A DNA stretch of 64,000 bases. Origin: Flammeovirgaceae bacterium 311 (lineage in GTDB: Bacteria > Bacteroidota > Bacteroidia > Cytophagales > Cyclobacteriaceae). Positions within the stretch are counted from its first letter, which is position 1. Each line of letters starts with the position of its first letter. Made by a program: the position numbers and the translations under genes. Below are positions 27,767 through 46,003 of the stretch, piece after piece. The DNA is taken from assembly GCA_000597885.1 (NCBI GenBank), contig CP004371.1, forward strand, positions 2,806,501 through 2,870,500. The letters run 5' to 3'. The notes below the pieces were generated by a model. The model had not been told where the DNA came from, made no database searches, and saw nothing but the letters and a program-made list of their open reading frames with translations.

Positions 27767-28399
27767 ATGCGCAGAAAACTAATCCTTTCTGTTATGCTAT
27801 CCATTCTGCTACTAATGGTACTTACCATATTCTGGCAGCAGGAAATAAAGTATCTAAAGCCTACGCCCGTTCCTCATAATTACAAAGCCGTACCAGTTCA
27901 GGAGACAATAGACCTGCAGGAAGTAGTGGGTGGGGAACCGAAAAAACCTGTGCTGCTTCATTTCTTCAACCCTGACTGCCCCTGCTCCCGCTTTAACACC
28001 AGCCATTTTGTTTCGCTGGTAAAGGAGTATGAAAATGAAGCTAGTTTTTATGTAGTACTGCAATACAGCCAGGACAAAGTAGCGGCAGAAAAAATTATGG
28101 CGCCCTATGGTGTGAAGCTGCCCGTGCTACTGGACGAAAACGAAGTCCTGGCCCAAAAATGCGGAGTTTACTCAAGTACGCAGGCCGTTATCATAGATCG
28201 CAATCAGCGGCTGTTCTATCGGGGCAACTACAACAGGTCCAGGTACTGTACCGATAAGCAAACCAGCTATGCCCGTCTTGCCCTGGAAGCCCTTAGAGCC
28301 GGGGCATCACCACCTAATTTATCAGCATTGGCTACAACTGCCTATGGTTGTGAGCTCAGAGACAATACTCCCTCAAACCTGAACTTTCTTACCTTCTAA
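27767..28399 (+). CDS. DUF6436-like thioredoxin-fold membrane-anchored protein
   Basis: ATG 27767 gives a clean N-terminal anchor (RRKLILSVMLSILLLMVLTIF); ATG 27731 is an alternative. The rest has a thioredoxin-like fold with PVLLHFFNPDCPCSRFN, where the redox centre is CPC instead of CxxC, and a cis-proline region GVYSSTQAVIIDRNQ. Such proteins are placed in DUF6436 and are probably periplasmic thiol-disulfide factors. The gene ends seven bases before a large PAS/GAF sensor and is likely in one operon with it, which hints that redox state is sensed. Confidence 0.75.
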   Translation: MRRKLILSVMLSILLLMVLTIFWQQEIKYLKPTPVPHNYKAVPVQETIDLQEVVGGEPKKPVLLHFFNPDCPCSRFNTSHFVSLVKEYENEASFYVVLQYSQDKVAAEKIMAPYGVKLPVLLDENEVLAQKCGVYSSTQAVIIDRNQRLFYRGNYNRSRYCTDKQTSYARLALEALRAGASPPNLSALATTAYGCELRDNTPSNLNFLTF

Positions 28400-28406
28400 C
28401 CAAAGT

Positions 28407-31064
28407 ATGAACATTTCTATTGCAGAAACCACGGCTATCAAAAGCAACGGGTACAAAAAATTTCTTTCTGAACGCTACCAGGAAGCTGATCGTAATACAA
28501 GCTATTTTATTTACGGTTTCTTAATACTGGGTATTTTAATTGCATCCTTTTATGATACCTGGCTGTTTGCTTTTGGGGTAGGCGGAGCCTGTCTGGCAGC
28601 TTACCTTTTGTGCAAATTCCTGATTCCCGGCACGCTGCTTTCGCGCATGGTGATCAGCGCTGTATTTTCCATTTTCATGCTACAGTTTATCGGGCAGATG
28701 CATGGCATGTACGAGATGCACTTTTTCTTCTTTATCAACATTGCTATCCTGATCATTTACCAGGACTGGCGGATCATGTTGCCCTACACCCTGATTGCGG
28801 CCGCCCATCATGGCACTTTATTTGGGTTGCAAATGAATGGCTATGATGTAAAAGATTACATTATTAACCAGGATGCCATCAGCCATACAACCATAGGTTT
28901 CCACCTGGGCCTGGTAGCCCTGATGGGTGTGGTCTGCGGATGGTGGAGTATTGTGCTGCAAAAAAGAACCAGGCAGGATTACATAAATAAGTATACCCTG
29001 GAGAGCCAGCTGGTAAACATGCAGAACAATATTGCCTTTGCCAGCCAGATCAGCAAGGGCAACTTAAACGCCAGTTATGAACTGCACAATGAAGACAAGC
29101 TGGGTAAATCACTGGTAGAGATGCGCAGCAGCCTGCTTGAAGCCTCGGAAAAAGAAGAGCAGGAAAAGTTTAAAAATGTAGGTCTCGCTGAAATCAGCGA
29201 TATTCTTAGAAACAATACTACCCACCTGGAAGATTTAGCCAACCAGGTGCTTGCCAGGATTATAAAGTACATGAACATCAACCAGGGAGGCCTGTTCATT
29301 TTGCAAAAAGATGAGGACGGAAGCTACCTGGAACTCCTGTCCAGCTATGCCTACAACCGGAAAAAATACCTTATTAAAAAAATAGAAATAGGTGAAGGCT
29401 TATTAGGACAGGCTGCACTGGAAAAAGACACTGTTTATCTGACAGACATCCCGCAGGATTATATCAGTATTACCTCCGGCTTGGGTGAGGCCCGTCCAAA
29501 TTGTGTATTGATCGTTCCCATAAAATCTAATGAAGAAGTGGTGGGTGTTATGGAATTTGCTTCTTTCCAGGTATTTCAGCCCTACCAGATCAAGTTCCTT
29601 GAGAAAGTTTCCGAGACCATTGCTTCTACCATTATTTCCGTACAGGTAAACCAGCAAACCAAATTGTTACTGGAGAAATCGCAACAACAGGCCGAGGAGC
29701 TTAGGGCACAGGAAGAAGAAATGCGCCAGAACATGGAGGAGATGGAGGCCACCCAGGAGGAAATGCAACGCAAGGAAATTGAAATGAGGGGGCAGCTGTC
29801 GGCGATAGACAACACCCTGGCCACCATAGAATTTGATATTAAAGGTAGCGTGCATACCGCCAATGATGCCTTCCTGAAGCTGATAGGCTACTCACTGGAA
29901 GAAATCAGGGGAAAACACCACCGCATGTTTTGCGAAAAAGAGTTTACCGAATCTGATGAGTATGTAGAATTCTGGAAACAGCTACAGCAAGGTATTAGCT
30001 TCAAGAACGACTATAAGCGTATTACCAGGCAGGGCAAAGAATTGTGGCTGCACGCCACCTATACCCCGGTGTTTGATAGCAAAGGATATCCCTACAAGAT
30101 AATTAAACTGGCTTTCGATATCACCAATGAAAAGCAAAAGCAACTCGATCTGCAGGGACAGGTAGAGGCCATCAACAATTCAAGCGCTGTAATAGAATTT
30201 ACACCCGAGGGGAAAATCTTAAGAGCCAACTGGATATTCCAGGATTTGATGAAATATTCTGAAAACGAGCTTGCCGGCAAACACCACAAGATCTTTATCG
30301 AGGAAGCAGAAGCCACCACTGCAGAATACCGCGAACACTGGTTAAAACTACAAAGCGGAGAGTCTGTACAGGGTGAGTTTAAAAGAATAGATAAGGAAGG
30401 CAAAACCATCTGGATCAGGGGAATTTACGGTCCGGTACTAGATATGAATAATAAGGTAGTGAAGGTGGTAAAGCTGGCTCAGAACATAACAGCAGAAAAA
30501 CAGCTGCTAAACAAGGCCCAGCAGCAAATGGATACATTAGACCAGAAGGTGCGGGAAAATGAAGTAATGCAGAAAGATCTTGATGCTTACCTGAAAGCAT
30601 TAGATGCCGCTGCGCTCATGAGCGAAGCAGATATTTATGGCAACATTACTTATGTAAACGACCGTTTCTGCGAAGTTGCCAAATACAACCGTGAAGAAGT
30701 TATTGGAAAACCCCACAGCATATTGCGGCATCCCGATAACTCTAAAAAACTATTCAAAGAAATGTGGGCCACAATCAAATCCGGAAAAGTATTTAAAGGA
30801 CACTACCCGAACACTGCAAAAGACGGAAGCACTTATTGGGTAGATGCCACCATTGAGCCTGTGCTTGGGGAAGACGGTAAACCTGTAAAATACATTGGAA
30901 TCCGTTTTGACATTACCGAGCAGGTTAAACGGGAAGAGGAAATAGCATCCTTACTGCAGCAAGCCAATGAGCACCTGAAGGAAATTCAGCAAAGTGAAGA
31001 AGAGCTTCGCCAGAACATGGAAGAAATGTCTGCCACCCAGGAGGAGCTAAGCAGAAAAGAGTAG
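28407..31064 (+). CDS. Membrane-bound GAF/multi-PAS sensor protein without output domain
   Basis: This 885-residue protein has about six N-terminal membrane helices (residues 35-190) with histidine-rich turns (MYEMHFFFFINIAILI, LIAAAHHGTLFG). A HAMP-like linker, a GAF domain (about 260-415), a coiled coil (EEEMRQNMEEMEATQEEMQ) and three PAS domains follow; the third has the Aer-like pattern (DIYGNITYVNDRF, then GKPHSILRHPDN). It ends in a second coiled coil. No kinase, cyclase or chemotaxis signalling domain is present. Beyond the TAG stop the same frame continues as ETLSIKEELDARVGK to TAA at 31151, so the stop may be recent. It probably signals through partner proteins. Confidence 0.85.
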   Translation: MNISIAETTAIKSNGYKKFLSERYQEADRNTSYFIYGFLILGILIASFYDTWLFAFGVGGACLAAYLLCKFLIPGTLLSRMVISAVFSIFMLQFIGQMHGMYEMHFFFFINIAILIIYQDWRIMLPYTLIAAAHHGTLFGLQMNGYDVKDYIINQDAISHTTIGFHLGLVALMGVVCGWWSIVLQKRTRQDYINKYTLESQLVNMQNNIAFASQISKGNLNASYELHNEDKLGKSLVEMRSSLLEASEKEEQEKFKNVGLAEISDILRNNTTHLEDLANQVLARIIKYMNINQGGLFILQKDEDGSYLELLSSYAYNRKKYLIKKIEIGEGLLGQAALEKDTVYLTDIPQDYISITSGLGEARPNCVLIVPIKSNEEVVGVMEFASFQVFQPYQIKFLEKVSETIASTIISVQVNQQTKLLLEKSQQQAEELRAQEEEMRQNMEEMEATQEEMQRKEIEMRGQLSAIDNTLATIEFDIKGSVHTANDAFLKLIGYSLEEIRGKHHRMFCEKEFTESDEYVEFWKQLQQGISFKNDYKRITRQGKELWLHATYTPVFDSKGYPYKIIKLAFDITNEKQKQLDLQGQVEAINNSSAVIEFTPEGKILRANWIFQDLMKYSENELAGKHHKIFIEEAEATTAEYREHWLKLQSGESVQGEFKRIDKEGKTIWIRGIYGPVLDMNNKVVKVVKLAQNITAEKQLLNKAQQQMDTLDQKVRENEVMQKDLDAYLKALDAAALMSEADIYGNITYVNDRFCEVAKYNREEVIGKPHSILRHPDNSKKLFKEMWATIKSGKVFKGHYPNTAKDGSTYWVDATIEPVLGEDGKPVKYIGIRFDITEQVKREEEIASLLQQANEHLKEIQQSEEELRQNMEEMSATQEELSRKE

Positions 31065-31203
31065 GAGACGCTCTCCATAAAAGAAGAACTTGATGCCCGG
31101 GTAGGCAAAATGGCAGCAAAAGAGCTTGACAACACCAGCCAGCCCGGGTAAGGCAGCAGCAAGGATTAACAAAAACAAAAGAAGGCACAATAACCTGATC
31201 TTA

Positions 31204-31416
31204 ATGGATAATAAGTCTGAAGCCATGACTGAGCTGATTAAAAGGCTCAAAGCGCTGAACAACCACTTAAGCCTGCACATTGAAAAGAGCCGGAAAGAGC
31301 TGCAGCTATACAGCCAGGAGTTAAAGCAATACCAAAATAATACCGCTGCGCCCTCCCGAAATGGAAAAGCTGATGTACAAAAGGTTGCCCTCCTGTGGCA
31401 GGAACATTTAAACTAA
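31204..31416 (+). CDS. Small coiled-coil hypothetical protein
   Basis: A 70-residue protein from ATG 31204, mostly one helix with heptad-like Leu spacing (TELIKRLKALNNHLSLHIEKS). An in-frame start further upstream would add a poorly protein-like, basic extension that overlaps the in-frame continuation of the sensor gene. It is downstream of the large PAS protein and may be its companion. I do not recognise the family. Confidence 0.5.
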   Translation: MDNKSEAMTELIKRLKALNNHLSLHIEKSRKELQLYSQELKQYQNNTAAPSRNGKADVQKVALLWQEHLN

Positions 31417-31505
31417 AAAAGCTTAAAGGTCAAAAGCTGCACTTCTGCGGAAACTTTATAAAGCTAAAATTTAACATCTCTGCTCCAATCTGTTATATGA
31501 TGTAC

Positions 31506-31538
31506 AGGCACTCTGCAGATAGCGGGGTGCCTTTTTTT
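31506..31538 (+). terminator. Probable intrinsic terminator
   Basis: AGGCAC and GTGCCT pair around a 15-base loop and are followed by seven T. It closes the DUF6436/PAS operon before the next kinase gene. Confidence 0.65.
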
Positions 31539-31640
31539 ATGCCTGAACACCCGTCCCCGCATATCTAAAGGCAATGTTTGTTATTCAGATATTTAGATCT
31601 TTAAGTGTATATTTCAGCCAATATCACGCAGAGATTTAAG

Positions 31641-33164
31641 ATGAATTCTTTATTCGATACGCTGGATTCAGGCTTCATGCCTCATGGCCATTGTTACTAT
31701 TGGGAGCCTTACATCATGTGGTCGCATGCGATTTCAGATAGTATTATTGCCCTGGCATACCTCACGATCCCCTTGAGCCTGATCAAGATTGTACGCAGCC
31801 GCAAGGAAGATGACTTTGCCTATATGTGGATGCTCCTGCTCTTTGCTGTGTTTATCCTGGGCTGCGGCGCTACCCATATCATGGATGTTGTTAACATCTG
31901 GGAGCCCTGGTACAGAACAGACTCTGCCATACGCATTATTACTGCCCTGGCCTCTATCGGCACGGCAGTACTACTGGTACGCATTACTCCACAGCTTATT
32001 ATGGTACCCAGCGGGCGCCGCTGGAAAGAACTGAATGAAGAGCTAAAATCACTCAATGAGCAGCTGGAGCAAAATGTACAAACCCGTACCGAAGAACTGG
32101 AAAAGCTTGCAGCACGGTATAAGTTTTTGTCAGATGCAATTCCACAAATTATCTGGACGGCAAATCCCATCGGCAAAACAGAGTACCTGAATAAAACGTG
32201 GTTTACCTACACTGGACAAAAAGAAGAGGAATCAACTGCCAGTAACTGGAACAGTCGCGTTCATCCCGAAGACCTGGTACCGGCCAGAGCAGCCTGGCAG
32301 GAATCAGTGGAAAAAGGAGTTCCGTTTGAGGCTAAAATACGTATTGCGAGTAAATCTGGCGAATATTGCTGGCACCTGAGCCGGGCATTGCCTATGACAA
32401 ACAGCCAGGGCCAGATAGAAAACTGGTTTGGCACAGCTACCAATATACATGATCAGGTAACAAAAAACCAACAGCTGGAACGTACCAATGAGGAGCTCGA
32501 TAATTTTGTGTATACGGCCTCTCATGACCTTAAAACCCCGATCCTGAATATCGATGGCTTGCTACAGCTGATGAAAGCTAAAATACCGGCAAATGAAAAT
32601 AAAGATCTGCAGAACATCTATGCGCGCATTGATAAATCGGTAAACCAACTGAGAGAAACTATTCACGACCTGGCAGATATTACCCGCATACAGCGCGAAC
32701 CTGCAGAGGAATCTCACTGGATTAACCTGCCGGAGCTGATAGAAGAATTCAAGGTAAACCACCAGTTATTATACGAGAGTACGGCAGCCACCCTGGATGC
32801 GGACCTGGAAGAAGTAGAGATATGCTGCATCTCCCGAAAGCACATGCGCAGCCTGCTGGATAACCTGCTTAGCAATGCCCTGAAATACCGCCATCCCGAG
32901 CGTCCGCCACATGTACAGGTTAAAAGCGAGCTGGAAGACCAATACTATAAAATTTCCATCCATGACAATGGCATAGGTATTGCCCCTGAGCATCAGCCAA
33001 AGGTTTTTGATATGTTTAAGCGCTTTCACAGCCAAGCCCCCGGTACAGGTGTAGGTTTATATATTGTAAAGAAGATCATTGAAAAGTACGATGGCCGCAT
33101 AAGCCTACAAAGTGCCCCCGAGATTGGCACTACCTTTACCGTATGGCTAAAGCAGAAAGGTTAA
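31641..33164 (+). CDS. Histidine kinase with ethylene-receptor-like N-terminal domain
   Basis: From ATG 31641 the protein has 507 residues. Three N-terminal membrane helices (about 25-115) match the ethylene-binding domain of plant ETR1: ISDSIIALAYLTIPL and FILGCGATHIMDVVNIW. The residues equivalent to ETR1 Asp25, Tyr32, Ile35, Pro36 and the copper ligands Cys65 and His69 are Asp33, Tyr40, Ile43, Pro44, Cys75 and His79. A coiled coil, a PAS domain (about 160-280), a HisKA helix with His295 (ASHDLKTP) and a complete HATPase domain (N box, HDNGIGI, GTGVGLYIV) follow. A GTG 36 bases upstream is a less likely start. No response regulator is adjacent. Confidence 0.9.
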   Translation: MNSLFDTLDSGFMPHGHCYYWEPYIMWSHAISDSIIALAYLTIPLSLIKIVRSRKEDDFAYMWMLLLFAVFILGCGATHIMDVVNIWEPWYRTDSAIRIITALASIGTAVLLVRITPQLIMVPSGRRWKELNEELKSLNEQLEQNVQTRTEELEKLAARYKFLSDAIPQIIWTANPIGKTEYLNKTWFTYTGQKEEESTASNWNSRVHPEDLVPARAAWQESVEKGVPFEAKIRIASKSGEYCWHLSRALPMTNSQGQIENWFGTATNIHDQVTKNQQLERTNEELDNFVYTASHDLKTPILNIDGLLQLMKAKIPANENKDLQNIYARIDKSVNQLRETIHDLADITRIQREPAEESHWINLPELIEEFKVNHQLLYESTAATLDADLEEVEICCISRKHMRSLLDNLLSNALKYRHPERPPHVQVKSELEDQYYKISIHDNGIGIAPEHQPKVFDMFKRFHSQAPGTGVGLYIVKKIIEKYDGRISLQSAPEIGTTFTVWLKQKG

Positions 33165-33204
33165 ATCTGGCTGCTTCCTATTGTCATAAACATTTCAACT
33201 ACTG

Positions 33205-33230
33205 GCACAGGACAATCCTGTGCTTTTTTT
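33205..33230 (+). terminator. Intrinsic terminator after the ethylene-receptor-like kinase
   Basis: GCACAGGA pairs with TCCTGTGC around a 3-base loop, with seven T after it. Confidence 0.88.
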
Positions 33231-33322
33231 ATGGATGTTCTGCCGGCTCTGGTACTCCCTCCTTTGTAAGAACAGAAATTTATTTCTATCGCTCCCTTTG
33301 AGTTTACCAACAAATTTATGTT

Positions 33323-33345
33323 ACTTTGAAGTACAAAGTACTTTA
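33323..33345 (+). promoter_or_regulatory. Operator-like palindrome at the start of the regulator operon
   Basis: ACTTTG and CAAAGT are inverted around five bases, then ACTTTA follows, ending one base before the ATG at 33347. The 23-base stretch differs at one base from 34393-34415, ahead of the DUF4173 gene. The left half (TTACTTTG) is one base off the -7 consensus TAnnTTTG, and TTTG at 33297 lies 20 bases further upstream as a possible -33. A bound protein would block transcription start. Confidence 0.7.
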
Positions 33346-33346
33346 C

Positions 33347-33976
33347 ATGAGCAAAACTGAAACCTACTTAAACGATCTGGCAGAGATCCGCTCCATGATG
33401 GAGCGCTCCAGCCGGTTCATTTCCCTCTCGGGGCTATCTGGTGTAGCAATGGGTATTTATGCACTGGCGGGTGCCGGTGCTGCCTGGTACCTGATGAACC
33501 AGGAGGGTATGCAGCTGGAGCATGGTCTGGCACGGGGTGCCGCCGGCGCAACACTTAGCCTGCAGCTCCTGTTCATTGGCCTGGTGGTGCTGCTGCTGGC
33601 GCTGGTTACCGGCTTGTGGTTAACCATTCGCAAAAGCAAAAAAACAGGACAGTCAATCTGGGATAAAACAGCCCGCAAGCTGCTGGTGAGTATGCTTATT
33701 CCGCTGGTAACAGGTGGTATCCTGTGCCTGATCTTTATGGCCCGGGGATTTGTAAGTGTTGTGGCCCCGCTCACCCTGATCTTCTATGGCCTGGCGCTGG
33801 TAAATGGCAGCAAATACACCCTTAGTGATATTCACACACTGGGGCTGCTGGAAATAGGACTGGGCCTGCTGGCTGCCATCTTCCTGGGCTATGGGCTTTT
33901 CTTTTGGGCAATTGGTTTCGGTGTTTTACATATTACTTATGGCTTCCTGATGTACCGGAAATACGAACGTGGATAA
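33347..33976 (+). CDS. Small hypothetical membrane protein of the XrtN-region regulator operon
   Basis: From ATG 33347 the product has 209 residues: a charged N-terminal helix (YLNDLAEIRSMMERSSRF) and about five or six membrane helices. I do not know its molecular role. Its frame overlaps the following winged-helix gene by eight bases, a pattern typical for a membrane partner that modulates a regulator. The operator-like motif lies directly ahead of its start. Together they are probably one autoregulated unit. Confidence 0.75.
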   Translation: MSKTETYLNDLAEIRSMMERSSRFISLSGLSGVAMGIYALAGAGAAWYLMNQEGMQLEHGLARGAAGATLSLQLLFIGLVVLLLALVTGLWLTIRKSKKTGQSIWDKTARKLLVSMLIPLVTGGILCLIFMARGFVSVVAPLTLIFYGLALVNGSKYTLSDIHTLGLLEIGLGLLAAIFLGYGLFFWAIGFGVLHITYGFLMYRKYERG

Positions 33977-34268
33977 TCTGCTAAAAAACTTAAATAAAGC
34001 CTTTGAGAGCAAGGTAAGGCTGGGGGTAATGTCACTGCTGATGATCCATGACGAACTGGAATTTACCCGCCTCAGGGAGCTGCTGCAGGTTACCGACGGC
34101 AATCTTGCCAGCCACTCCAGAGCGCTGGAAACAGCTGGCTATATCCAGGTGGAAAAAAGTTTTGTAGGCCGTAAACCAAATACCACCTACAAGGCAACCA
34201 GGGAAGGCAGCAAAGCTTTTCAGGAGCACCTGGGTGCCCTGGAAAACCTGATCAGGCATGGGAGGTGA
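33969..34268 (+). CDS. Winged-helix transcriptional regulator (HTH_34 / ArsR-MarR-like)
   Basis: A 99-residue one-domain DNA-binding protein starting at GTG 33969, inside the end of the preceding gene. The helix-turn-helix is LEFTRLRELLQVTDGNLASH, followed by the wing (VGRKPNTTYKATREGSKAF). There is no effector domain, so sensing may depend on the membrane protein encoded with it. A shared palindrome precedes this operon and the DUF4173-exosortase operon 147 bases downstream. I infer it represses both. Repeat B copy 1 begins at its stop codon. Confidence 0.88.
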   Translation: MDNLLKNLNKAFESKVRLGVMSLLMIHDELEFTRLRELLQVTDGNLASHSRALETAGYIQVEKSFVGRKPNTTYKATREGSKAFQEHLGALENLIRHGR

Positions 34269-34304
34269 ATGTGCTAATGTGCTAATTGATCAATGTGCTA
34301 ATCA
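34264..34304. repeat. GTGCTAAT repeat cluster B, copy 1
   Basis: Three near-identical GTGCTAAT words lie in AATGTGCTAATGTGCTAATT, a TGATCA palindrome and AATGTGCTAATCAC. They start in the regulator's stop codon region and end before the DUF4173 promoter. Similar words in both orientations occur at 45899-45998. Confidence 0.65.
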
Positions 34305-34392
34305 CATGCGCCTGTAGCATTAAACCTATAAACCGCATCGGCGGACCGCTAATTCACTCATAAAAAAACTACTTCTCTTTTTTTGCTAATGA

Positions 34393-34415
34393 ACTTTGAA
34401 ATACAAAGTACTTTA
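34393..34415 (+). promoter_or_regulatory. Operator-like palindrome at the start of the exosortase operon
   Basis: The same motif as at 33323-33345: ACTTTG, AAATA, CAAAGT, then ACTTTA, whose final A is the first base of the DUF4173 start codon. GAACTTTG is one base off the -7 consensus. The identical placement relative to two start codons supports a common regulator. Confidence 0.7.
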
Positions 34416-35779
34416 TGAAAAACAAAGCTATCTCTTTACAGGCTACAGCCGCTCTTACAGGAACTTGGCTGCTATACCAGACCAGCTGGGGGCTTAACGC
34501 TTTTTTGCTGGCGCTGATGGTGCTGGGTTTACTGGTCTGGACAAAACGGCTGGCCCCGATCCCTGCAGTGTTGTTCGGTATTTCGGGTTTGTTTGTGGCA
34601 TTAAGTGCCTCCATGCTTAGCCTGGTGCTGTTCTGGCTGCTCCTGTTTCTGCTTATTGGTAACCGGCAGAGCAGTGTTTCATGGCTTATAGCCATACCTG
34701 AAGGCATTTGCAGACTGGTAAGTAGTGGCTGGAAGGTGTTGCGGAGCGGGAATCAAACCGCACTGCCAGGTTTTAGCTTAAGCAAAAGCCTGCTCTTCAC
34801 CCTGCCTCCCCTCGGCATCACGCTTATCTTTTACGCACTTTATGCAAACGCCAGTCCTGCTTTTGCCAGTAAAGCATCGCTGGCACAGCTCAACCTTCCC
34901 GATATAACATGGTTCCTGCTATTTTTCGGCCTGCTGTATGGCAGTTATGCGCTGGCATATGCTCATCCTGCCACCAGGCTGGAGGCATGGGATGCCCGCC
35001 AGCCAGATGTCCTGATTCGCCGCAGAAGAAAAATCATGCTGAACCCTTTCTGGCTCAAGTATGAATATAAAACAGCCCTGTTGGTACTGGGACTGCTGAA
35101 CGCCCTGCTCCTGCTCTTTCATGGCATCGACATGACCACCCTCATGGAAGGCAAGCCAGGAGATGGCATTACCTATGCCGAATGGGTACACCAGGGAGTA
35201 GGTACCCTCATTGTTTCCATTATGATGGCCGTTGCCCTGCTGATCTATGTTTTCCGCGGAAACCTGAACTTCTTTAAGCAGAACAAACCACTCCTGCAGC
35301 TGGCAAAAGCCTGGATTATTCAGAACCTGCTGCTTGTCTTGACCACTACCCTGAAAAACAGCTGGTACATTGCCTCTTACGGCCTTACCTATAAGCGCAT
35401 TGGCGTATGGGTTTACCTGGTACTGGTGCTCATTGGCCTGATCAGTACCTGGATCAAGATCAGCGAAAAACAAACGCTCTGGTGGATGATCAAGGGCAAC
35501 TTCAGGGCGACCCTTGTGGTGCTGCTCCTGGTGGCTGCCCTTCCCTGGGCCCGCATCATCAGCTGGTATAACCTGGAAAAAGCCGCAGTACACGATACCG
35601 CTTACCTGCTGGAACTCCCCCTGCACAATACCGATCAGCTGATGCAATACAAATTTGCCTTCAGGCCGGAACAACAACGAAGGTTACACAACCGGCAGTC
35701 ATCCCTCATACATTTAACAAAAACTGAAAACTGGAAAAGCTGGACGCTCCTGAACCATTATGCTGCACAAAATCTATAA
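34415..35779 (+). CDS. DUF4173 multi-spanning membrane protein
   Basis: A 454-residue protein with about 11-12 membrane helices, starting at ATG 34415 directly behind the operator-like motif. The DUF4173 region is recognisable near residues 300-350 (NSWYIASYGLTYKRIGVWVYL). A soluble C-terminal segment follows the last helix. Function is unknown; DUF4173 genes are often paired with a small winged-helix regulator, as here. It is the first gene of a four-gene operon and overlaps the next gene by 20 bases. Confidence 0.85.
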   Translation: MKNKAISLQATAALTGTWLLYQTSWGLNAFLLALMVLGLLVWTKRLAPIPAVLFGISGLFVALSASMLSLVLFWLLLFLLIGNRQSSVSWLIAIPEGICRLVSSGWKVLRSGNQTALPGFSLSKSLLFTLPPLGITLIFYALYANASPAFASKASLAQLNLPDITWFLLFFGLLYGSYALAYAHPATRLEAWDARQPDVLIRRRRKIMLNPFWLKYEYKTALLVLGLLNALLLLFHGIDMTTLMEGKPGDGITYAEWVHQGVGTLIVSIMMAVALLIYVFRGNLNFFKQNKPLLQLAKAWIIQNLLLVLTTTLKNSWYIASYGLTYKRIGVWVYLVLVLIGLISTWIKISEKQTLWWMIKGNFRATLVVLLLVAALPWARIISWYNLEKAAVHDTAYLLELPLHNTDQLMQYKFAFRPEQQRRLHNRQSSLIHLTKTENWKSWTLLNHYAAQNL

Positions 35780-36770
35780 ATACCTCTCAAAGATCAAGAG
35801 ACTGATCCGGGTGATCGTGCTCAGGATAACGAACCCCTGGGTGGCAGGGCCTCTGTTAGGACTGGCGGCTTTTTGCCCGCTCTACCTCTTTACCCTGGCC
35901 GGCTCCTGGCTGCCCCACCTGCTTGTATTATGCCTGCTGTGGACCGGCTGGCTCCTGCTAAAGCGTCAAAACCACAAAGCCGCCTGGCTGGCAGCGTGGG
36001 TAGTACTGGCAGCCTCAGCACTGGTCCCTCAGCAGGAAATTGCCGCCCCTGCTCCGGCAGCAGGCACAAGCCTGAAGGTGGCCCAGGTAAATGTACTGCA
36101 GTTTAACAGCCGACACGAGATGGTAACCCGGCAAATAGAAGCATTGGGTGCCGACATCCTGGCATTTCAGGAGGTAAACCAGCCGTGGGCGGATAGCCTG
36201 GTAAAGGTGCTGTCGGCAGAATACCCCTACTTTAGCCTGGCTCCACAGGATAATTGCTATGGCATGGCCCTCTTTTCCAAAAAGCCCCTTAAAGAGGTGC
36301 AGCTGCGCCTCTGGGAGGGTTATCCGGCCATCAGCGCCAGGATAGAAGAAAATGGGCAGGATACCCTGATCTTAAGCCTGCATGCTGCCTCTCCTGTTAG
36401 CCTTGAACGCTTCCGGGCCCGCAACAAACAGCTAAAAGCAGCCGCCCGCTTTATAGAAGAAGCAGGTGTCCCTACCCTGGTACTGGGCGACTTTAACACA
36501 GTACCCTGGGATCCTGCCCTGAAGCCCCTGCTGCAGGCGGCAAACCTTCAGGACAGCCGCTCCCTGCATTACACCGCCACCTGGCCCTCCTTCTTTGGCA
36601 AGTGGGGCATTCCCATCGATTATGTACTGCACAGCCCGCACTGGCAGCGCTTAAGCCACGGCAGCGTCAGCATTCCCGGCTCAGACCACAAAGCCATGGT
36701 CGCCACCCTGGCCATGAAAGCCTCCCCTGCACAGGAACAGAACAATATATTAGTAAGCGCACAGCCATGA
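35760..36770 (+). CDS. Membrane-anchored endonuclease/exonuclease/phosphatase-fold protein
   Basis: A 336-residue protein with about two N-terminal helices (residues 28-90) and a DNase I-like EEP domain. Catalytic-type residues are all present: QVNVLQFN, LAFQEVNQ, LSLHAAS, VLGDFNTVPWDP, PIDYVLHS and GSDHKAMV. The anchored EEP proteins of bacteria may cleave phosphodiesters of lipids or nucleotides outside the cytoplasm; the substrate is unknown. It overlaps both neighbours (20 bases and 4 bases), so it is part of the exosortase operon and may process a lipid or glycan involved in sorting. Confidence 0.9.
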   Translation: MLHKIYKYLSKIKRLIRVIVLRITNPWVAGPLLGLAAFCPLYLFTLAGSWLPHLLVLCLLWTGWLLLKRQNHKAAWLAAWVVLAASALVPQQEIAAPAPAAGTSLKVAQVNVLQFNSRHEMVTRQIEALGADILAFQEVNQPWADSLVKVLSAEYPYFSLAPQDNCYGMALFSKKPLKEVQLRLWEGYPAISARIEENGQDTLILSLHAASPVSLERFRARNKQLKAAARFIEEAGVPTLVLGDFNTVPWDPALKPLLQAANLQDSRSLHYTATWPSFFGKWGIPIDYVLHSPHWQRLSHGSVSIPGSDHKAMVATLAMKASPAQEQNNILVSAQP

Positions 36771-37288
36771 AAGTTATGCATGTGCTCCTGAATCGCCCCA
36801 CCATTCAGCTGATCCTGCTCTGGTGCCTGGTAATTGCTGCAAAGCTATGGTACCGGCAGGCAGAGGTAACAGAACTTGCTTTTCTGTTAACGCCTACAGC
36901 CAAAATAAGCGGACTGCTGATGAACTTAAGCTTTGAATGGCAGCCGCTGGGATATCATTGCCTGAAGGCCGGCATTCTGATTTCGCAGGATTGCTCTGGC
37001 TTTAATTTTTTACTTGTTGCCACACTGGCTGCTTTTTTTGCACTCTCGCCCCGTTGGTCACAAAGGTTATGGCTCATGCCTCTTTCGGTGCTCCTGGCTT
37101 TTGGACTTACCATACTGGCCAATGTGGCCCGCATTTGTTGCCTGGTGGTGGCAGGTACTTTAACACCGGTACCCGGCTGGCTCCACCTTAGCATCGGCAT
37201 CATCGTTTACCTGTGCCTGCTAATTCCCTATTCACTTCTGCTTTCTAAAAATCCTATCCTTCTGCCCTATGCAAACCAAAACAACTAG
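36767..37288 (+). CDS. xrtN: Exosortase, XrtN type (minimal)
   Basis: A 173-residue membrane protein; ATG 36767 overlaps the preceding stop as ATGA. The exosortase triad is present: Cys76 in SQDCSGFNF, Arg122 in ANVARICC and His140 in GWLHLSIG, each at the membrane surface. Exosortases cleave a C-terminal sorting signal and transfer the protein to another molecule. Size and its pairing with one VIT-domain protein fit exosortase N; exosortase K is a related dedicated type I cannot fully exclude. It overlaps the start of the VIT gene by 20 bases, tying enzyme and substrate together. Confidence 0.83.
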   Translation: MKVMHVLLNRPTIQLILLWCLVIAAKLWYRQAEVTELAFLLTPTAKISGLLMNLSFEWQPLGYHCLKAGILISQDCSGFNFLLVATLAAFFALSPRWSQRLWLMPLSVLLAFGLTILANVARICCLVVAGTLTPVPGWLHLSIGIIVYLCLLIPYSLLLSKNPILLPYANQNN

Positions 37289-40160
37289 CCCGGTACAATT
37301 GGTACCTGCACCCCGACAAGGGTCCGACGCCTCAGTTAAAACCTTTCATCCGCTGTCGGCCCTGCTGCTACACAGCCTGCCACAGCTGGGTCTGCTCGGG
37401 CTCTGGTCCCTGATGCTCCTAAGCTTTCAATCTTCGCTGCAGGAAAGTGCCAGGCCTTACTTTTATACTACCTTCTGTATTATTCTTACAGTTTGGCTCT
37501 GTAACCTGGGCTATGCCGTTTACTGCTACCGGCGCAGGCAGGGCCTGTCTGTTCGCTGGGCTGTTGCCTCCCTTGTAGCCTATGTTGTCCTGATTGTGCT
37601 GTATTACCAAAACCTGGATCTGTACCAGACACTGGGCGTACCCAGCTGGCAACAGCCGGGGGATATCCTGCACTATACAGGTTCCTTCATCATCCCTGCT
37701 GTATTACACCTGCTTACGCTGCTGGCTGTTTGGTTTAGCAACCGCAGCACAGAAAACCGGGGCTGGCGTACTGCCCTAATGGGATTACTCCCCCCACTGC
37801 TCTGCTACCTGATGGTGATGGGTGCTTTTGGCCTGCGGCTCCCGGTAAGCTTTGATAGTTACTGGTTTATCCTGTTGGTAGCCTGTGCCACTGTAGCCTC
37901 TGTTTTTTACCTGATCCTTGGAGTTGTAAGGCTAAACCTGTCAAGATTCGGATCCAGGGAGTTGGGGAGTGTAGTTAAATTTTTATTAACCGGCCTGTTG
38001 CCACTGGGCTGCCTGATGTTTAATAATGGATCGTTCTGGGGAGACCCCAGCAATAGCGAAGGCATGTTTGGCGATTTTAACCACCCGCTCTTCTATGTGC
38101 TGGCAGTGGTGAACGGTTTGCTGATCAGCCTTCCAGATCATACACCAGCCAAACGGCCCTGGATATTTATTGGCCGCTGCATGCTGCTGCCTTTTTCCCT
38201 TTATTTCTTTTTTGTGATGGCACCCTACATGCCATTCTCCATATTTCTGGTCATTTTCTTAGGCCTCGGGCTACTCCTGCTAACGCCCATTGTTGTTATT
38301 GTCTTTCACCTGAAAGCGCTGATCGGGGATATCAGGATGCTATCCAACACCTCTCCCCTTTTAAACCTGGCCCTGGCCGGTGCCATTGCTTTCATGGTAC
38401 TGCCGGCAGGCATTTTCATAACCTACCAGCACGACCGTGTGGTGCTGCACCAGGCACTGGATTATCTGGATGATCCTGGTGCCACAGCAGTAGAAGTTTC
38501 TACCTTTAGCCTCCATCGTACCCTTAGTCATATACAGGGAAACAAAGTAAGAGGCGACCGGTGGTTTGACCAGCGCCACACGCCCCTGCTCTCTCCCTGG
38601 TTTACCTGGCAGGTACTCGATGGGCTTAGCCTCTCCGATACCAAAGTAAGCCAAATTCAACAGGTGTTCCTGAACAAACCCTTAAGCCGGCAGGAGCAGC
38701 CATTTAGCCGCTGGAGCCGGCCGGAAAGCGGAAGTGTTACCCTGGATTCACTCACCGGCAGCAGTTATTACAATGCAGAGGCGGGCCATTGGGTGAGCGA
38801 GGTGCAGCTGGAAATGCATAACCCCACCAACGGCTGGCAGGAGTACCTCACCCAGTTTGAGCTGCCTGCCGGCAGCTGGGTAAGCGATTATTACCTGTAC
38901 CTGGGCGATCAAAAAGAACCAGGGTTGCTCGTGGAGAAAAAAGCTGCGCTGTGGGTGTATGATCAGATCACCCGTACGCGCAAAGATCCCGGCCTGCTGC
39001 GCTATCTTCCCGGTGGTGCCCTGGAGCTGCGTGTGTACCCCTTCACAGAAGAGCAAACCCGCCGCACGGGATTTACCCTGCTGCATAAAAGACCTTTTAC
39101 GCTAGCCCTGGATGGAAAGCAACTTCAGCTGGGAGACCCCGATCAGTTAACAGCAGCGCCACAGTTGGCACAGACAAGCACAGGGGTATTTATACCCGCA
39201 GAACACAAAGTGGGGCTTCCTACTGTAGAGCGAGAGGGATACTGGCACTTTATAATAGATTGCTCCGAAAATAATGAAGCCCTGCTCCAAAATTACAAAG
39301 CAGCCATAGAGCAGCTGTTACAGGAGTATCCACTGCTGGCAGCAAAAGCAAAGATCTCCTTCACCGGCCATTCGGTTGCTACTTTTCCTCTTCAGGCCAG
39401 CGAGCTAGAGCAGCTTTGGCAGCAACAGACATTTGAAGGAGGCTTTTACCTGGAGCGTGCCCTCCAAAGCCTGTTGCTGGATCACTACAGGAGTAGCGAA
39501 CAAGATTTTCCGGTGCCTGTGGTAATCACCAACAATTATGAAAACGCTATTTTAACTGCCAGCCTGCCGGATCTATCCTTTGCGATGTCGGGGCAGCAGC
39601 ATTTCTACAGGCTAAAATCAAATGCTACCCTTGCTGCCTACGCTTATGGCACTCCAAAGGAAGAGCTGGATGCTGCTATAGAACCTCCACAACAGCTAAG
39701 CAGCCTTGCCTGGCCGGATGCAGCACAACCCAGGATCTTCCTGAAGCCTGACGGGAAAGATGCCCTGCTGCCACTGCCGGTACAAGTGCTATCTACAGAA
39801 GCAACGGCGGGTTCAGAATGGGATGAAGGCCTGAAGCTATGGACTGACTGGCAGGGGGCGCAGTTATATCCTGCAGCGGATAGCTGGAAAGCGCAGGTAA
39901 AAAGCAGTTTTGCAGCCCACATTCTTAGTCCGCACACTGCCTTTATGGTAGTAGAAGAAGCATGGCAAAAGGATATGCTGCTGCGCAAACAGGAGCAATA
40001 CCTCAACGGCCATCCAGGCATTGACAGCGGCACTGAGCTGGTAGAAATGCCCGAACCGGAATTTTGGGTGCTGCTGATACTATTATTCCTGTGGCTTGGG
40101 TGGAGGAAGCGGGCAAAATGGCAGCAGCTCAGGCAGCAATTGCAGAAAGCCATAGCTTAA
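37269..40160 (+). CDS. VIT-domain membrane protein, predicted exosortase substrate
   Basis: This 963-residue protein has about ten N-terminal membrane helices (residues 30-390). An extracytoplasmic VIT domain follows (about 490-620, with WVSEVQLEMHNP and ALWVYDQITRTRKDPGLL), then a von Willebrand-like alpha/beta region. The last 37 residues form a sorting tail: MPEPEFW, a hydrophobic stretch VLLILLFLWLGW and a basic RKRAK end. Such tails (PEP-CTERM-like) are recognised by exosortases. It is the only protein in the window with this tail and overlaps xrtN, so it is probably the dedicated substrate. VIT domains act in protein-protein contact; the biological role is unknown. Confidence 0.85.
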   Translation: MQTKTTSPVQLVPAPRQGSDASVKTFHPLSALLLHSLPQLGLLGLWSLMLLSFQSSLQESARPYFYTTFCIILTVWLCNLGYAVYCYRRRQGLSVRWAVASLVAYVVLIVLYYQNLDLYQTLGVPSWQQPGDILHYTGSFIIPAVLHLLTLLAVWFSNRSTENRGWRTALMGLLPPLLCYLMVMGAFGLRLPVSFDSYWFILLVACATVASVFYLILGVVRLNLSRFGSRELGSVVKFLLTGLLPLGCLMFNNGSFWGDPSNSEGMFGDFNHPLFYVLAVVNGLLISLPDHTPAKRPWIFIGRCMLLPFSLYFFFVMAPYMPFSIFLVIFLGLGLLLLTPIVVIVFHLKALIGDIRMLSNTSPLLNLALAGAIAFMVLPAGIFITYQHDRVVLHQALDYLDDPGATAVEVSTFSLHRTLSHIQGNKVRGDRWFDQRHTPLLSPWFTWQVLDGLSLSDTKVSQIQQVFLNKPLSRQEQPFSRWSRPESGSVTLDSLTGSSYYNAEAGHWVSEVQLEMHNPTNGWQEYLTQFELPAGSWVSDYYLYLGDQKEPGLLVEKKAALWVYDQITRTRKDPGLLRYLPGGALELRVYPFTEEQTRRTGFTLLHKRPFTLALDGKQLQLGDPDQLTAAPQLAQTSTGVFIPAEHKVGLPTVEREGYWHFIIDCSENNEALLQNYKAAIEQLLQEYPLLAAKAKISFTGHSVATFPLQASELEQLWQQQTFEGGFYLERALQSLLLDHYRSSEQDFPVPVVITNNYENAILTASLPDLSFAMSGQQHFYRLKSNATLAAYAYGTPKEELDAAIEPPQQLSSLAWPDAAQPRIFLKPDGKDALLPLPVQVLSTEATAGSEWDEGLKLWTDWQGAQLYPAADSWKAQVKSSFAAHILSPHTAFMVVEEAWQKDMLLRKQEQYLNGHPGIDSGTELVEMPEPEFWVLLILLFLWLGWRKRAKWQQLRQQLQKAIA

Positions 40161-40174
40161 GTTACTTCTTTTCG

Positions 40175-40210
40175 GGCTGTAGCCGATATCCTTAAGTATC
40201 AGCTACAGCC
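40175..40210. terminator. Hairpin between convergent genes
   Basis: GGCTGTAGC pairs with GCTACAGCC, with partial pairing of the A/T-rich centre. It lies between the exosortase operon and the convergent glycosyltransferase-like gene and touches the stop codon of the latter. Flanking T runs are modest. Confidence 0.7.
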
Positions 40211-41439
40211 TATTCTTCTGGTCTGTAGTGGTGTGGAAAATAGCGGATCATAGCCACCAGGTGCTCTGCTACCAGCGCCGGAGAGGTACTGGTGGGCAGG
40301 AAGCGCCCCAGGTAAAGCTGGTTTTGCGGATTGTGACGGGGTATTACATCTTCTGCCTGATTGATGATTTTGTAAGGCGGTACCAGGCTGATAAAGCCGG
40401 CCGACAGCCAGGAAGGGATCAGCATGTTAGACCCATGCACCCCTACCACCACGTGGCTGCTGCTGTACTGCCGGCACCATTCCAGTTCGGTTGCTTCTGT
40501 TACCTGGCCGTGGGCTGCGCGCATATCCCTGAAATCTGCAGGAAAGCTGCCTGTAGTTCCCAGCCCCACCACTGCAAAATCAACATCTCCAATTTGCTGC
40601 TTTAAGGCGCTGGCAAGCTGCTGAAAAAGCTTATTCTGCCGGTGAATAAAGTAAGCTTTTACTTTGGGCAGGAATTTAAACTTCTGGGCCGCCAGATAAA
40701 GATTTGCATCTGCCCTGCCTGTGAGCCAGAAACGGTCTTCGCGGTAAATAAATGTGATCAGGGGCCGCTCTTCCGTAAACCGCTGCATGGCAAAGGGCGA
40801 CACCTTTACAAAGTGGGAGAAATCTATTTTGCTGTAGTCTACACTGGTGGATGCCGGGCTTAGAAAAACCTCCGAAAAGCGATAGAGCTCCTCCTTGATA
40901 AAAGCATCAAAGTTTTTCAGCACTCCCTTTAGCTCCCCCAAGGGGGCTTTTACCGACCAGACTTCTGCCACACCCTCAGGCACCAGCCAGATAAAAATTT
41001 GGGGCACGATTAGGATCAGGTCCAGTGCCGGATCTGCCAGGTAGTGCTGGGCGTTCATGAGTTTTACCAGCACATGGCCGTAGCAATCGTCAAGGCAGTT
41101 AAGAATTACCACCCGCCCGGAGGCTGGCTTCAATCTTTTTTTTTCTATGGAAACCGTACTGCCACTGCCCTGTACGACGCTATCGATCAGCGGTTTTGCC
41201 AGCCAGTCGGCTGCCTGCGGGTGGTACTGTGCCCCTGAACCATCGGCACAAAAAGAAACGGGGTAGAAGGAGGTGTAGCCCAATGGAAGGCTGTAGTAGT
41301 ATTCTTTTCCGTCTTCTTCGTTGCGTTGCCTTAGCAGGGTATGTACGCCCAGAAAAAGTAAATCCTCCAGCTTTGGCTGCTGTAATGCTACAGTATGCCC
41401 AAGTGGAGGAAGTACAGGTTCTGGAAATATCTTGATCAT
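40210..41439 (-). CDS. Putative glycosyltransferase, family 61-like
   Basis: A 409-residue protein without a membrane helix. Near residue 115 it has GHVLVKLMNAQHYL, comparable to the conserved His-containing start of the GT61 domain, and near 335-355 SSSHVVVGVHGSNMLIPSWL, the characteristic HG-containing acceptor/donor loop. GT61 enzymes move xylose or related sugars onto glycans. Similarity is moderate, and the substrate is unknown. No other sugar genes adjoin it. Confidence 0.6.
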   Translation of the reverse strand: MIKIFPEPVLPPLGHTVALQQPKLEDLLFLGVHTLLRQRNEEDGKEYYYSLPLGYTSFYPVSFCADGSGAQYHPQAADWLAKPLIDSVVQGSGSTVSIEKKRLKPASGRVVILNCLDDCYGHVLVKLMNAQHYLADPALDLILIVPQIFIWLVPEGVAEVWSVKAPLGELKGVLKNFDAFIKEELYRFSEVFLSPASTSVDYSKIDFSHFVKVSPFAMQRFTEERPLITFIYREDRFWLTGRADANLYLAAQKFKFLPKVKAYFIHRQNKLFQQLASALKQQIGDVDFAVVGLGTTGSFPADFRDMRAAHGQVTEATELEWCRQYSSSHVVVGVHGSNMLIPSWLSAGFISLVPPYKIINQAEDVIPRHNPQNQLYLGRFLPTSTSPALVAEHLVAMIRYFPHHYRPEE

Positions 41440-41554
41440 GCAAACTGCCTATGTCTCTGATAGCATGTGAGGGTGTAACCTGAATTTTCAAACCGGAAGA
41501 ATGCCGGGAGACCCATTGCTACCACCAAACATAAGCAATTATGCTATACACTGC

Positions 41555-42121
41555 TTAACCTAATCGGTAGGTCACCAGCTTATTGATTACCTCACAAAAG
41601 AGCTGCGGCTTCATGGTGCGCCAGTTTTGCACATCCAGCTGGCCACCCATATTGACGTAGGCATCGATGTTGTAGAGCTTCATTTCATGCTGTACAAAAT
41701 CACGAAAGCCAATGCCGGCAATCCACCCATCCTCCACATCATCAAACCATTCCTCGTAGTAGCAATCGTCGGAGCCATGAAAGTTGAGTACATTTTCTCC
41801 GATCAGGATAAATTTATTAATGCCGATTGGGGTAAAATAATCAATAATGTTGCGCTTGAGGTGCATGATGTCGTTGTTAATGGCATCATTCCACTCTCCC
41901 AGGAATTCCATTACTACAAAACCACGGTCGTAATCGGCCCATAAGATTTTAAAATACAGGGTCTCGGAGCCCATAAAATCCCAGGCCGGATCTATGTAAA
42001 AATTGTAGATGGCATCGGTATACAGCTCATAATTGTACTCCTTCCCGAAGTACGGTGAGCGGGTATCTTCGGCTACGTTATAATATTTTAGCCAGTTGTA
42101 AAAAGGTTCAATCTCGTGCAT
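41555..42121 (-). CDS. Conserved hypothetical protein coupled to murQ
   Basis: A 188-residue acidic, aromatic-rich soluble protein (many Tyr, Trp, Asp), with no signal peptide. I do not recognise a domain. Its start overlaps the murQ stop by 14 bases, so the two are co-transcribed and likely coupled. A role connected with muropeptide recycling is possible but rests on position alone. Confidence 0.75.
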   Translation of the reverse strand: MHEIEPFYNWLKYYNVAEDTRSPYFGKEYNYELYTDAIYNFYIDPAWDFMGSETLYFKILWADYDRGFVVMEFLGEWNDAINNDIMHLKRNIIDYFTPIGINKFILIGENVLNFHGSDDCYYEEWFDDVEDGWIAGIGFRDFVQHEMKLYNIDAYVNMGGQLDVQNWRTMKPQLFCEVINKLVTYRLG

Positions 42122-42926
42122 GTTGCTGACGGTAAAAATCGACGGCCTTGCGAACCGACCCCTGCTGCAACAGCAGCTGCCGGGCTTCGGCTTCCTCGAT
42201 AGTTAACTCGTCCATGATCATGCGGGTTCCGCGTTCTACCAGCTTTTTATTACTAAGCTGCATGTCTACCATTTTGTTGCCCTTTACCCTGCCCAGGCGC
42301 ACCATGGTAGAGGTGGTAATCATGTTCAGCACCAGTTTTTGGGCCGTGCCGGCTTTCATGCGGGTGCTGCCTGTTACAAACTCGGGACCAACAACAGCTT
42401 CTATGGGATACTCACAGGCTGCCGCCACCGCTGAGCCGGGGTTGCACACCACACAACCTGTGAGCAGACCCCGCTTCCGGGCTTCCTGCAGGCCACCGAT
42501 CACATAGGGGGTACGGCCAGAGGCGGCAATACCTACCACCGTATCCAGCTCGTTTGGCAGGTAAGGTGCCAGGTCATGCCAGGCAGCATCTCGGTCGTCT
42601 TCGGCAAACTCAACCGCTTTGCGAATGGCGCTGTCGCCGCCGGCAATCAGGCCAACCACCCAATCGTGGGGTACTCCATAGGTAGGCGGGCATTCTGAGG
42701 CATCTACAATACCGAGGCGGCCACTGGTGCCGGCGCCAATGTAAAACAGCCGGCCTCCCTGCTGCATGCGCGGCACCAGCTGCTCTACCAGTGCTTCTAT
42801 CTGCGGAATCGCTTTTTCCACAGCCAGGGGTACTGTTTTATCTTCCTTATTGATATTGTCCAGCAGCTCCCGCACACTCATCTGCTCAAGGTGGTTGTAG
42901 TGGGAGCTTGATTCGGTGATGCTCAT
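42108..42926 (-). CDS. murQ: N-acetylmuramic acid 6-phosphate etherase
   Basis: A 272-residue SIS-domain enzyme cleaving the lactyl ether of MurNAc-6-phosphate to GlcNAc-6-phosphate and lactate in peptidoglycan recycling. Typical segments are GRLFYIGAGTSGRLGIVDASECPPTYG, GDSAIRKAVEFAEDD with the catalytic Glu, and TGSTRMKAGTAQKLVLNM. It is slightly shorter than E. coli MurQ (298 residues) at the C-terminus. It is first in a two-gene operon. Confidence 0.97.
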   Translation of the reverse strand: MSITESSSHYNHLEQMSVRELLDNINKEDKTVPLAVEKAIPQIEALVEQLVPRMQQGGRLFYIGAGTSGRLGIVDASECPPTYGVPHDWVVGLIAGGDSAIRKAVEFAEDDRDAAWHDLAPYLPNELDTVVGIAASGRTPYVIGGLQEARKRGLLTGCVVCNPGSAVAAACEYPIEAVVGPEFVTGSTRMKAGTAQKLVLNMITTSTMVRLGRVKGNKMVDMQLSNKKLVERGTRMIMDELTIEEAEARQLLLQQGSVRKAVDFYRQQHARD

Positions 42927-42989
42927 TTTTGATGTTTATGGACGCTAAATTATAAACTTGTTCTAACTGCCTTGCAGGCATATGGAAAT

Positions 42990-43313
42990 TTACAATAAAG
43001 AATTTTTGTAATATATGACATCATCATACTTCACCAGCTCTATTTCCTGCCCTATCCTAAAAGGGGGCCTGTAACTATTTGCGTATTTCACAAAATCCCT
43101 TTTCATTTTTTGGTCCCTGTCCAGATACTCCACATACGGATACTTAATCCAGGTCCATTCACCACCAATTCTGGCAAACTTAGAGCGATATTCTATCACA
43201 AAACCTTTTGTATGATAGCCTTCTCTTAATATAGCTTGTGACTTCTTAAGCAAAAGCACCCAAACAAGTATGATAACAGCAATAAGGACAAACAGGAAGA
43301 TTAACCACTCCAT
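42990..43313 (-). CDS. DUF3592-like small membrane protein
   Basis: A 107-residue protein with one N-terminal helix (WLIFLFVLIAVIILVWVLLL) and a small beta domain, including GFVIEYRSKF, KYPYVEYLD and FRIGQEIELVKYD, that resembles DUF3592. These proteins have no assigned role. It stands alone on the minus strand between murQ and the Rieske oxidoreductase. Confidence 0.7.
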   Translation of the reverse strand: MEWLIFLFVLIAVIILVWVLLLKKSQAILREGYHTKGFVIEYRSKFARIGGEWTWIKYPYVEYLDRDQKMKRDFVKYANSYRPPFRIGQEIELVKYDDVIYYKNSLL

Positions 43314-43421
43314 AGGATGCTATGCTAAAGCTTTGCTACCAATGTAAGGCTCTTATCTGAAATTTTCAGAACAAAAACCTCTATAAGAAGCAAGGCATCA
43401 GAAGCAAGCCTGCGCTGTCAC

Positions 43422-44909: not shown

Positions 44910-44935
44910 AGGTTTTGTAGCTTTGGTTATAGGAG

Positions 44936-44943
44936 TAACTTTG
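44936..44943 (+). promoter_or_regulatory. Promoter -7 element of the CDF exporter gene
   Basis: TAACTTTG matches TAnnTTTG exactly. TTTG at 44914-44917 lies 18 bases upstream as the -33 element. The exporter ATG is 24 bases downstream, which favours the start at 44968 over an earlier in-frame one. Confidence 0.6.
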
Positions 44944-44967
44944 AATGAGTTCCGATGTTTTTACAAT

Positions 44968-45900: not shown

Positions 45901-46003
45901 TGTGCTAATTGGGACAGCAAACTTTATGAATTACTGTGGGTGTTCATATGCAGTACCCCGATCATTAGCACATTAGCACCCCAAAAAATTAGCACATTAC
46001 CCA
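45899..46003. repeat. GTGCTAAT repeat cluster B, copy 2
   Basis: The 105-base gap holds AATGTGCTAATT at its left and AATTAGCACATT (45987-45998) at its right as perfect inverted 12-mers. ATTAGCACATTAGCACC occurs at 45964-45980. The left repeat begins in the exporter's stop codon. It resembles cluster 34264-34304. Confidence 0.7.

Follow-up and report, generated by a model that had tools for sequence, protein, structure and literature searches.

Why two neighbouring operons of Flammeovirgaceae bacterium 311 begin with almost the same short sequence, and which protein could read it, is the question raised by this locus. In the window (the whole stretch of 64,000 nucleotides that was analysed), positions 33323-33345 (ACTTTGAAGTACAAAGTACTTTA) and 34393-34415 (ACTTTGAAATACAAAGTACTTTA) differ by a single mismatch, which lies within the spacer; the ATG at 33347 begins one base past the end of the first 23-base stretch, and the A of the ATG at 34415 is the last base of the second. 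The letters thus agree with the earlier note, which had described two near-identical stretches lying at start codons, and the exact 17-mer ACTTTG-N5-CAAAGT is found in the window at these two places only. The features concerned are the following:

33323..33344, + strand: putative operator 1, ACTTTG-AAGTA-CAAAGT-ACTTT, an exact 22-mer that precedes the regulator operon
33347..33976, + strand: MEM, a membrane protein of 209 aa with seven predicted helices, one N-terminal and six long
33969..34268, + strand: winged-helix regulator of the HTH_34 family (PF13601, 104.7 bits), 99 aa, with a GTG start that overlaps the MEM gene
34393..34414, + strand: putative operator 2, ACTTTG-AAATA-CAAAGT-ACTTT, an exact 22-mer that precedes the target operon
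34415..35779, + strand: DUF4153 protein (PF13687, 112.4 bits, cut-off 27), first gene of the target operon
35760..36770, + strand: endonuclease/exonuclease/phosphatase-family (EEP) protein (PF03372, 102.6 bits)
36767..37288, + strand: exosortase XrtK, ATG start (TIGR04287, 86.8 bits, cut-off 55)
37269..40160, + strand: MSEP-CTERM (VIT-domain) protein, the expected XrtK substrate (TIGR04286, 691 bits, cut-off 150)

Adjoining reading frames overlap by 4 to 20 bases, and no tRNA genes were found at 28000-46000 of the window. The target operon had been read as starting with a DUF4173 gene and containing xrtN, two labels that the family scores rule out at this locus. DUF4153 is the only Pfam family found for the first gene at E<=0.001, and the XrtN model TIGR04476 reaches 24.2 of the 200 bits required (TIGR04477, 47.5 of 250), whereas TIGR04287 and TIGR04286 are found side by side and over their cut-offs, so that the sorting genes belong to the XrtK/MSEP-CTERM system.

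With regard to the regulator, its score is far over the HTH_34 cut-off of 27 bits and this is the sole Pfam family listed for it, LytTR not being among its families; the ArsR/SmtB model NF033788 gives 21.8 bits against a cut-off of 55. Both sequence and fold resemble those of the solved relative PH1061 (36.7 bits; best PDB match of the structure model 1ub9, TM 0.86; model pLDDT 93), MarR and PadR chains appear among the Foldseek matches of the model, and a search of the literature by titles found no target site for PH1061/1UB9. MEM is modelled with a pLDDT of 88 and its N-terminal helix is well conserved in the alignment. It belongs to no Pfam or NCBIfam family over cut-off (best 17.2 bits, 27.4 needed), and a known fold was rejected for it as its model matched nothing in the PDB at E<=0.001. 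Just upstream of this operon, at 31605-33164, there is a histidine kinase whose N-terminal domain resembles that of ethylene receptors (ETR1_N, PF25487).

We consider it likely that the HTH_34 protein encoded between the two 22-bp elements uses them as its operators, and that it would act as an autorepressor and as the repressor of the following operon, with MEM as a gate. What we computed to arrive at this reading are the sites, their spacing, their linkage to and co-occurrence with the MEM/HTH_34 pair, the correlation between recognition helix and motif, and the overlap with the promoter.

The conservation of the sites was examined at loci chosen by the membrane protein and not by the motif, namely the best 80 of at least 579 MEM relatives found with a MEM alignment. 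An HTH_34 gene lies within 4 kb behind MEM in 78 of the 80, and the counts over 78 loci omit two loci with too little upstream sequence or two without HTH_34 within 4 kb. Allowing one mismatch, the equivalent of operator 1 was present between 200 nt upstream of the MEM match and 30 nt inside it at 76/78 loci (62 exact) and that of operator 2 between 60 nt upstream and 400 nt downstream of the regulator's end at 71/78 (58 exact), in contrast to 0/78 and 0/78 for a reversed-pattern control; as the loci are kin by descent, these counts are not independent. The earlier note had asked for the motif at both starts of homologous loci, and there it is. When spacer lengths from N0 to N15 were tried, N5 alone occurred (62 and 58 loci). 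Furthermore, nCTTT follows the second arm in 69/76 first sites and 64/71 second sites, which makes it a third half-site of the operator; conservation of the right arm and of nCTTT is roughly on a par with that of the left arm. The conserved unit is therefore ACTTTG-N5-CAAAGT-nCTTT, of 22 bp; the inverted pair proposed before is real, but it is not the whole operator. The two-site layout across loci also supports the idea that one operator is common to the regulator operon and the next one, with autoregulation as its probable consequence. Its recurrence in many Bacteroidota suggests that the arrangement is a conserved switch for envelope proteins.

In the genome of the bacterium itself (6,665,617 bases) the 17-mer is found three times exactly and 19 times with one mismatch, far from the hundreds of unrelated sites that would have spoken against an operator. 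However, the reversed control gave 3 and 20, so the count alone proves nothing and its enrichment was rejected as evidence. The sites exceed chance by the 22-mer, by their placement and by their conservation: the exact 22-mer ACTTTG-N5-CAAAGT-ACTTT is found three times against none for the control, and all three exact 17-mers lie beside HTH_34 genes over cut-off, of which the genome has just two (three weaker matches stay below it). The second of these genes has a site with one mismatch before its operon and the third exact site begins 45 bp behind its matched domain, giving the same layout as in the window, that is, site, MEM, HTH_34, site and the next genes:

L034:2887-14012 (own genome C1:511386-522511): the other copy of the pair, again with two sites

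Behind this second pair there is a 417-aa frame and then, as judged by eye, an ABC ATPase followed by two proteins, 1215 and 1219 aa long, that are related to each other and membrane-like. With up to three mismatches, the 22-mer with nCTTT gave 64 matches in the whole genome, fewer than the 117 of the control, so beyond the four sites at the two loci nothing stands out, and further regulon members in this genome were rejected.

The left arm of the operator coincides with the consensus of the -7 promoter element of the phylum, TAnnTTTG, and at operator 1 the following elements can be proposed:

33298..33300, + strand: candidate -33 TTG, 25 bases before the left arm
33321..33328, + strand: candidate -7 box TTACTTTG (consensus TAnnTTTG), inside operator 1

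Counting from the left arm over 147 sites, there is a T at -2 in 123, and TTG at -25, -24 or -23 is scored 64 times, with a smaller TTG peak at -10 (24), a pattern that would fit TTG, about 20 bases and T(A/T)ACTTTG, close to TAnnTTTG. Site 1 of the window has the TTG, and site 2, with no TTG at -25..-23 and GA at -2/-1, fits a promoter less well. The overlap with a -7-like element that had been noticed in the window is consequently a clear trend over the 147 sites, of which window site 1 is a fair example and site 2 a poorer one. As the -7 box of F. psychrophilum lies at -12 to -5 (PMC9723704), transcription would start in the spacer, near 33333 by our inference for operator 1, and leave a leader of about 12-16 nt; in 59/76 cases an ATG in frame with MEM is found 7-9 nt behind the palindrome.

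An element that looks so much like a promoter could also be the site of an activator, or represent a special sigma-factor class of promoter, and not a repressor operator. The match of the left arm to TAnnTTTG and the standing of the element at gene starts are what such a reading would predict. We nevertheless regard it as unlikely, because neither the right arm nor nCTTT is known to play a part in promoters, yet both are conserved about like the left arm, and because the presence of the element follows the HTH_34/membrane pair. Moreover, the spacing of the -33 TTG is that of ordinary promoters, and repressors typically sit over -7/+1.

How closely the element follows the pair could be seen in a scan of 296 genomes. 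The exact 22-mer occurs in 57 of them, with 100 sites listed and zero throughout for the control. Of these sites 74 lie within 2.5 kb of a MEM gene, every one on the MEM strand, and at least 68 lie within 5 kb of an HTH_34 gene among the 150 HTH_34 matches listed, again all on the same strand. MEM is present in 53/57 genomes with the motif vs 38/239 of the others (Fisher p 8e-29, which ignores kinship, and with 10/101 genomes whose MEM matches are weak, E 1e-20 to 2.5e-13, scored as MEM-less), so 38 genomes bear MEM without an exact 22-mer. An HTH_34 gene is found in 57/57 motif genomes vs 179/296 overall (chance 5e-15). In the fetched loci, a same-strand frame starts within 300 nt downstream of 97/102 exact sites, a count made with no control.

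Twenty-six exact sites are not linked to MEM. A survey of 23 of these, made with no control, placed 19 within 300 nt of a family also seen behind linked sites (c8, c10, c6, c16, C92 peptidase, Coq4-like, DUF4153, CreD, DUF2809 and XrtN VIT). In five genomes of a single genus (g65; L150, L151, L153, L155, L156) an unlinked site is followed by a C92-peptidase gene and then a Coq4-like gene, a second regulon locus.

The motif also tracks the part of the regulator that would touch DNA:

34095..34133, + strand: presumed recognition helix DGNLASHSRALET, residues 43-55, a helix in the model

Residues D43, G44, S48 and H49 are invariant across 41 regulator sequences. To compare helix and motif we used one row per distinct protein, from loci with top HTH_34 scores or hand-picked but not chosen for the motif, those from L172 to L181 mostly being picked since they had no exact 22-mer nearby. 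The site, with up to one mismatch, accompanied 14/14 MEM-linked regulators and 5/24 unlinked regulators of the DGNL..H type, 14/24 of the latter having AAAGTNCTTT, the inner part of the composite operator, in their neighbourhood. None of 11 AGNL..Q regulators had the site, two had AAAGTNCTTT and one a variant palindrome, and two single cases of other helix types (DG..S and SG..G) carry the site. On these sequences, the change of D to A and of H to Q appears to go with the loss of the operator.

That another, unlinked regulator binds the site and the HTH_34 gene is just one of its targets would also explain the linkage, since a mere target is likewise expected to lie beside it. This we judge very improbable, as HTH_34 is present in 57/57 motif genomes, the motif follows the class of recognition helix (14/14 vs 0/11), and unlinked DGNL..H genes have a related core nearby in 14 of 24 cases. 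Because of the linkage at 76/78 and 71/78 loci, the presence of HTH_34 in all motif genomes and the absence of the site in the AGNL..Q class, the winged-helix protein, already singled out as the natural binder from the letters of the window, is very probably both the binder and an autoregulator. As for the palindrome acting as RNA, in a leader hairpin that controls translation or termination, it is scarcely credible: an inverted repeat that leaves a 5-base loop, just ahead of a start codon, would suit it, but a transcription start in the spacer would leave the left arm outside the RNA (from the -7 box position given in PMC9723704), some copies stand 74-205 nt before the frame and the element is tied to HTH_34 genes.

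Several HTH_34 genes of other loci are worth recording here. AAAGTNCTTT lies 8-83 nt before f35 HTH_34 frames at L072, L076, L080, L083, L091, L093, L094, L096, L099 and L100. HTH_34 classes outside f35 likewise come, for the most part, after a membrane protein some 200 aa long. At L082, L088, L098, L178, L196, L200 and L201 the membrane protein before other HTH_34 classes has a different sequence, and some of these loci have a variant palindrome or none; its homology to MEM is uncertain (hhalign probability 31.5, E 0.0005).

Returning to the repressor reading, we infer binding, repression, the dimer, membrane gating and a signal as follows. The HTH_34 protein, probably as a dimer in view of the inverted half-sites and the modelled fold, would bind ACTTTG-N5-CAAAGT, whose half-sites are separated by one turn of the helix, and would make an additional contact with nCTTT. 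Because the -7 box and the predicted start both lie within the element, binding should block RNA polymerase, so that one protein would hold down both its own operon and DUF4153-EEP-XrtK-MSEP. The multi-pass MEM may respond to some state of the envelope by retaining the regulator or letting it go, through the conserved N-terminal helix of MEM. In other Bacteroidota the same two-site module would command different envelope cargo, and the autorepressor would have linked and sometimes unlinked targets.

The nearest logic described, in our analysis, is that of the LytTR Regulatory Systems, such as HdrRM and BrsRM of Streptococcus mutans, which are widespread, consist of a regulator and a transmembrane partner and are autoregulated (PMC6193735). 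In them the regulator binds direct repeats upstream of -35 and drives a positive loop, being held by a membrane inhibitor (PMC6193735), so they act by activation. The likeness lies in a two-gene operon of regulator and membrane partner with repeats at its own promoter; the differences are an unrelated winged-helix family, inverted half-sites over -7/+1 and a predicted repressor. MarR-, PadR- and ArsR-type autoregulated repressors have palindromic operators at their own promoters. They share the winged-helix fold, and the present system differs by its third half-site and its co-encoded membrane protein. CreD, a frequent cargo here, would follow an HTH_34 operator rather than a two-component system, as creD does in CreBC-CreD (PMC4689548). 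The window genes match the XrtK and MSEP models, and XrtN/VIT operons elsewhere carry the same operator; another exosortase, XrtF of F. johnsoniae, is treated in PMC10936215. Literature on exosortases and CreD/DUF4153 yielded no regulator of XrtK/MSEP-CTERM or XrtN/VIT systems, and the operator was not found in literature on the motif, HTH_34, exosortases and CreD/DUF4153, mainly open-access and covered by top matches for the broad topics. A conserved envelope-gene switch with this two-site layout is apparently undescribed.

A wider proposal, which we rate slightly below an even chance, is that HTH_34 proteins and their multi-pass membrane partners make up a class of membrane-gated switches found throughout the phylum, that the recognition helix fixes the operator of each subclass, and that the DGNLA(S/T)H subclass reads ACTTTG-N5-CAAAGT-nCTTT and commands an envelope regulon. 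If so, HTH_34 switches would work like LytTR systems with an unrelated winged-helix repressor. For a regulon met repeatedly across Bacteroidota, the prediction supplies an operator exact to the base, together with its regulator and a partner in the membrane.

The genes under this predicted control are varied. Of the 78 loci, 21 have CreD as the first frame behind the regulator, 13 have DUF4153, 11 c8, 16 some other family and 15 an unlabelled frame, while 2 have no frame there; counting everything within 6.5 kb, DUF4153 turns up at 36, CreD at 24, DUF1361 at 21, XrtK with MSEP at 4 and XrtN/VIT at 1 of the 78. These labels come from clusters or single queries, with one Pfam-tested member each for CreD, DUF1361, C92 and DUF2809, and the Coq4-like label rests on a match below cut-off. 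Two or more predicted membrane segments were found in 55/70 first frames vs 21/168 upstream frames (simple hydropathy, longest frame). CreD and DUF4153 are nearly exclusive behind the regulator in L206-L285, as though one replaced the other: 24 loci have CreD, 35 DUF4153 and one both among the 71 with enough sequence (p 1.5e-8, ignoring kinship).

The sorting genes are thus a recurrent but minority cargo, CreD and DUF4153 being commoner. The claim of a switch for the sorting system holds in that these genes are a recurrent target, and not in the sense that the switch exists for them; as the defining target, exosortases are too narrow. XrtK and MSEP-CTERM, both over curated cut-offs, are found behind the pair in Xanthovirga (L208), Marinifilum (L236) and two Kordia (L256, L283); in L208 the nearest site is 184 nt before XrtK, and in the other three CreD comes first. 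Nine genomes have MSEP-CTERM over cut-off. A site is present at that operon in G000, G344 and G222, the last with no HTH_34 within the fetched stretch, and none at that operon in G012, G015, G037, G056, G194 and G219 (6/9), although G012, G015 and G219 encode both MSEP-CTERM and MEM. When G017 and G230 are added to these nine, the eight genomes with MEM are exactly the eight with the 22-mer (up to one mismatch), which in the 11 genomes gave 32 matches vs 5 for the control.

XrtN/VIT operons, with VIT and XrtN over cut-off, carry the site behind the pair in G017 (L039) and Mucilaginibacter pankratovii (L234) and away from it in G230 (L154), so two different exosortase/VIT systems are found under the operator. 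If the wider proposal is right, interchangeable inner-membrane and sorting genes (CreD or DUF4153, the two exosortase/VIT systems and others) would form an envelope regulon, and their placement under one predicted control suggests when these poorly understood proteins act. In a family search the XrtN VIT protein was found in 3/296 genomes. The exact 22-mer stands within 100 nt before its gene in G230 and G300; at the gene of G166, a genome also without a MEM match, there is no 22-mer. Near 4005-4012 of L338 and L339 (G230 and G300), on the - strand, there is an extra palindrome, ACTTTG-N5-CAAAGT-TTA, that lacks the third half-site.
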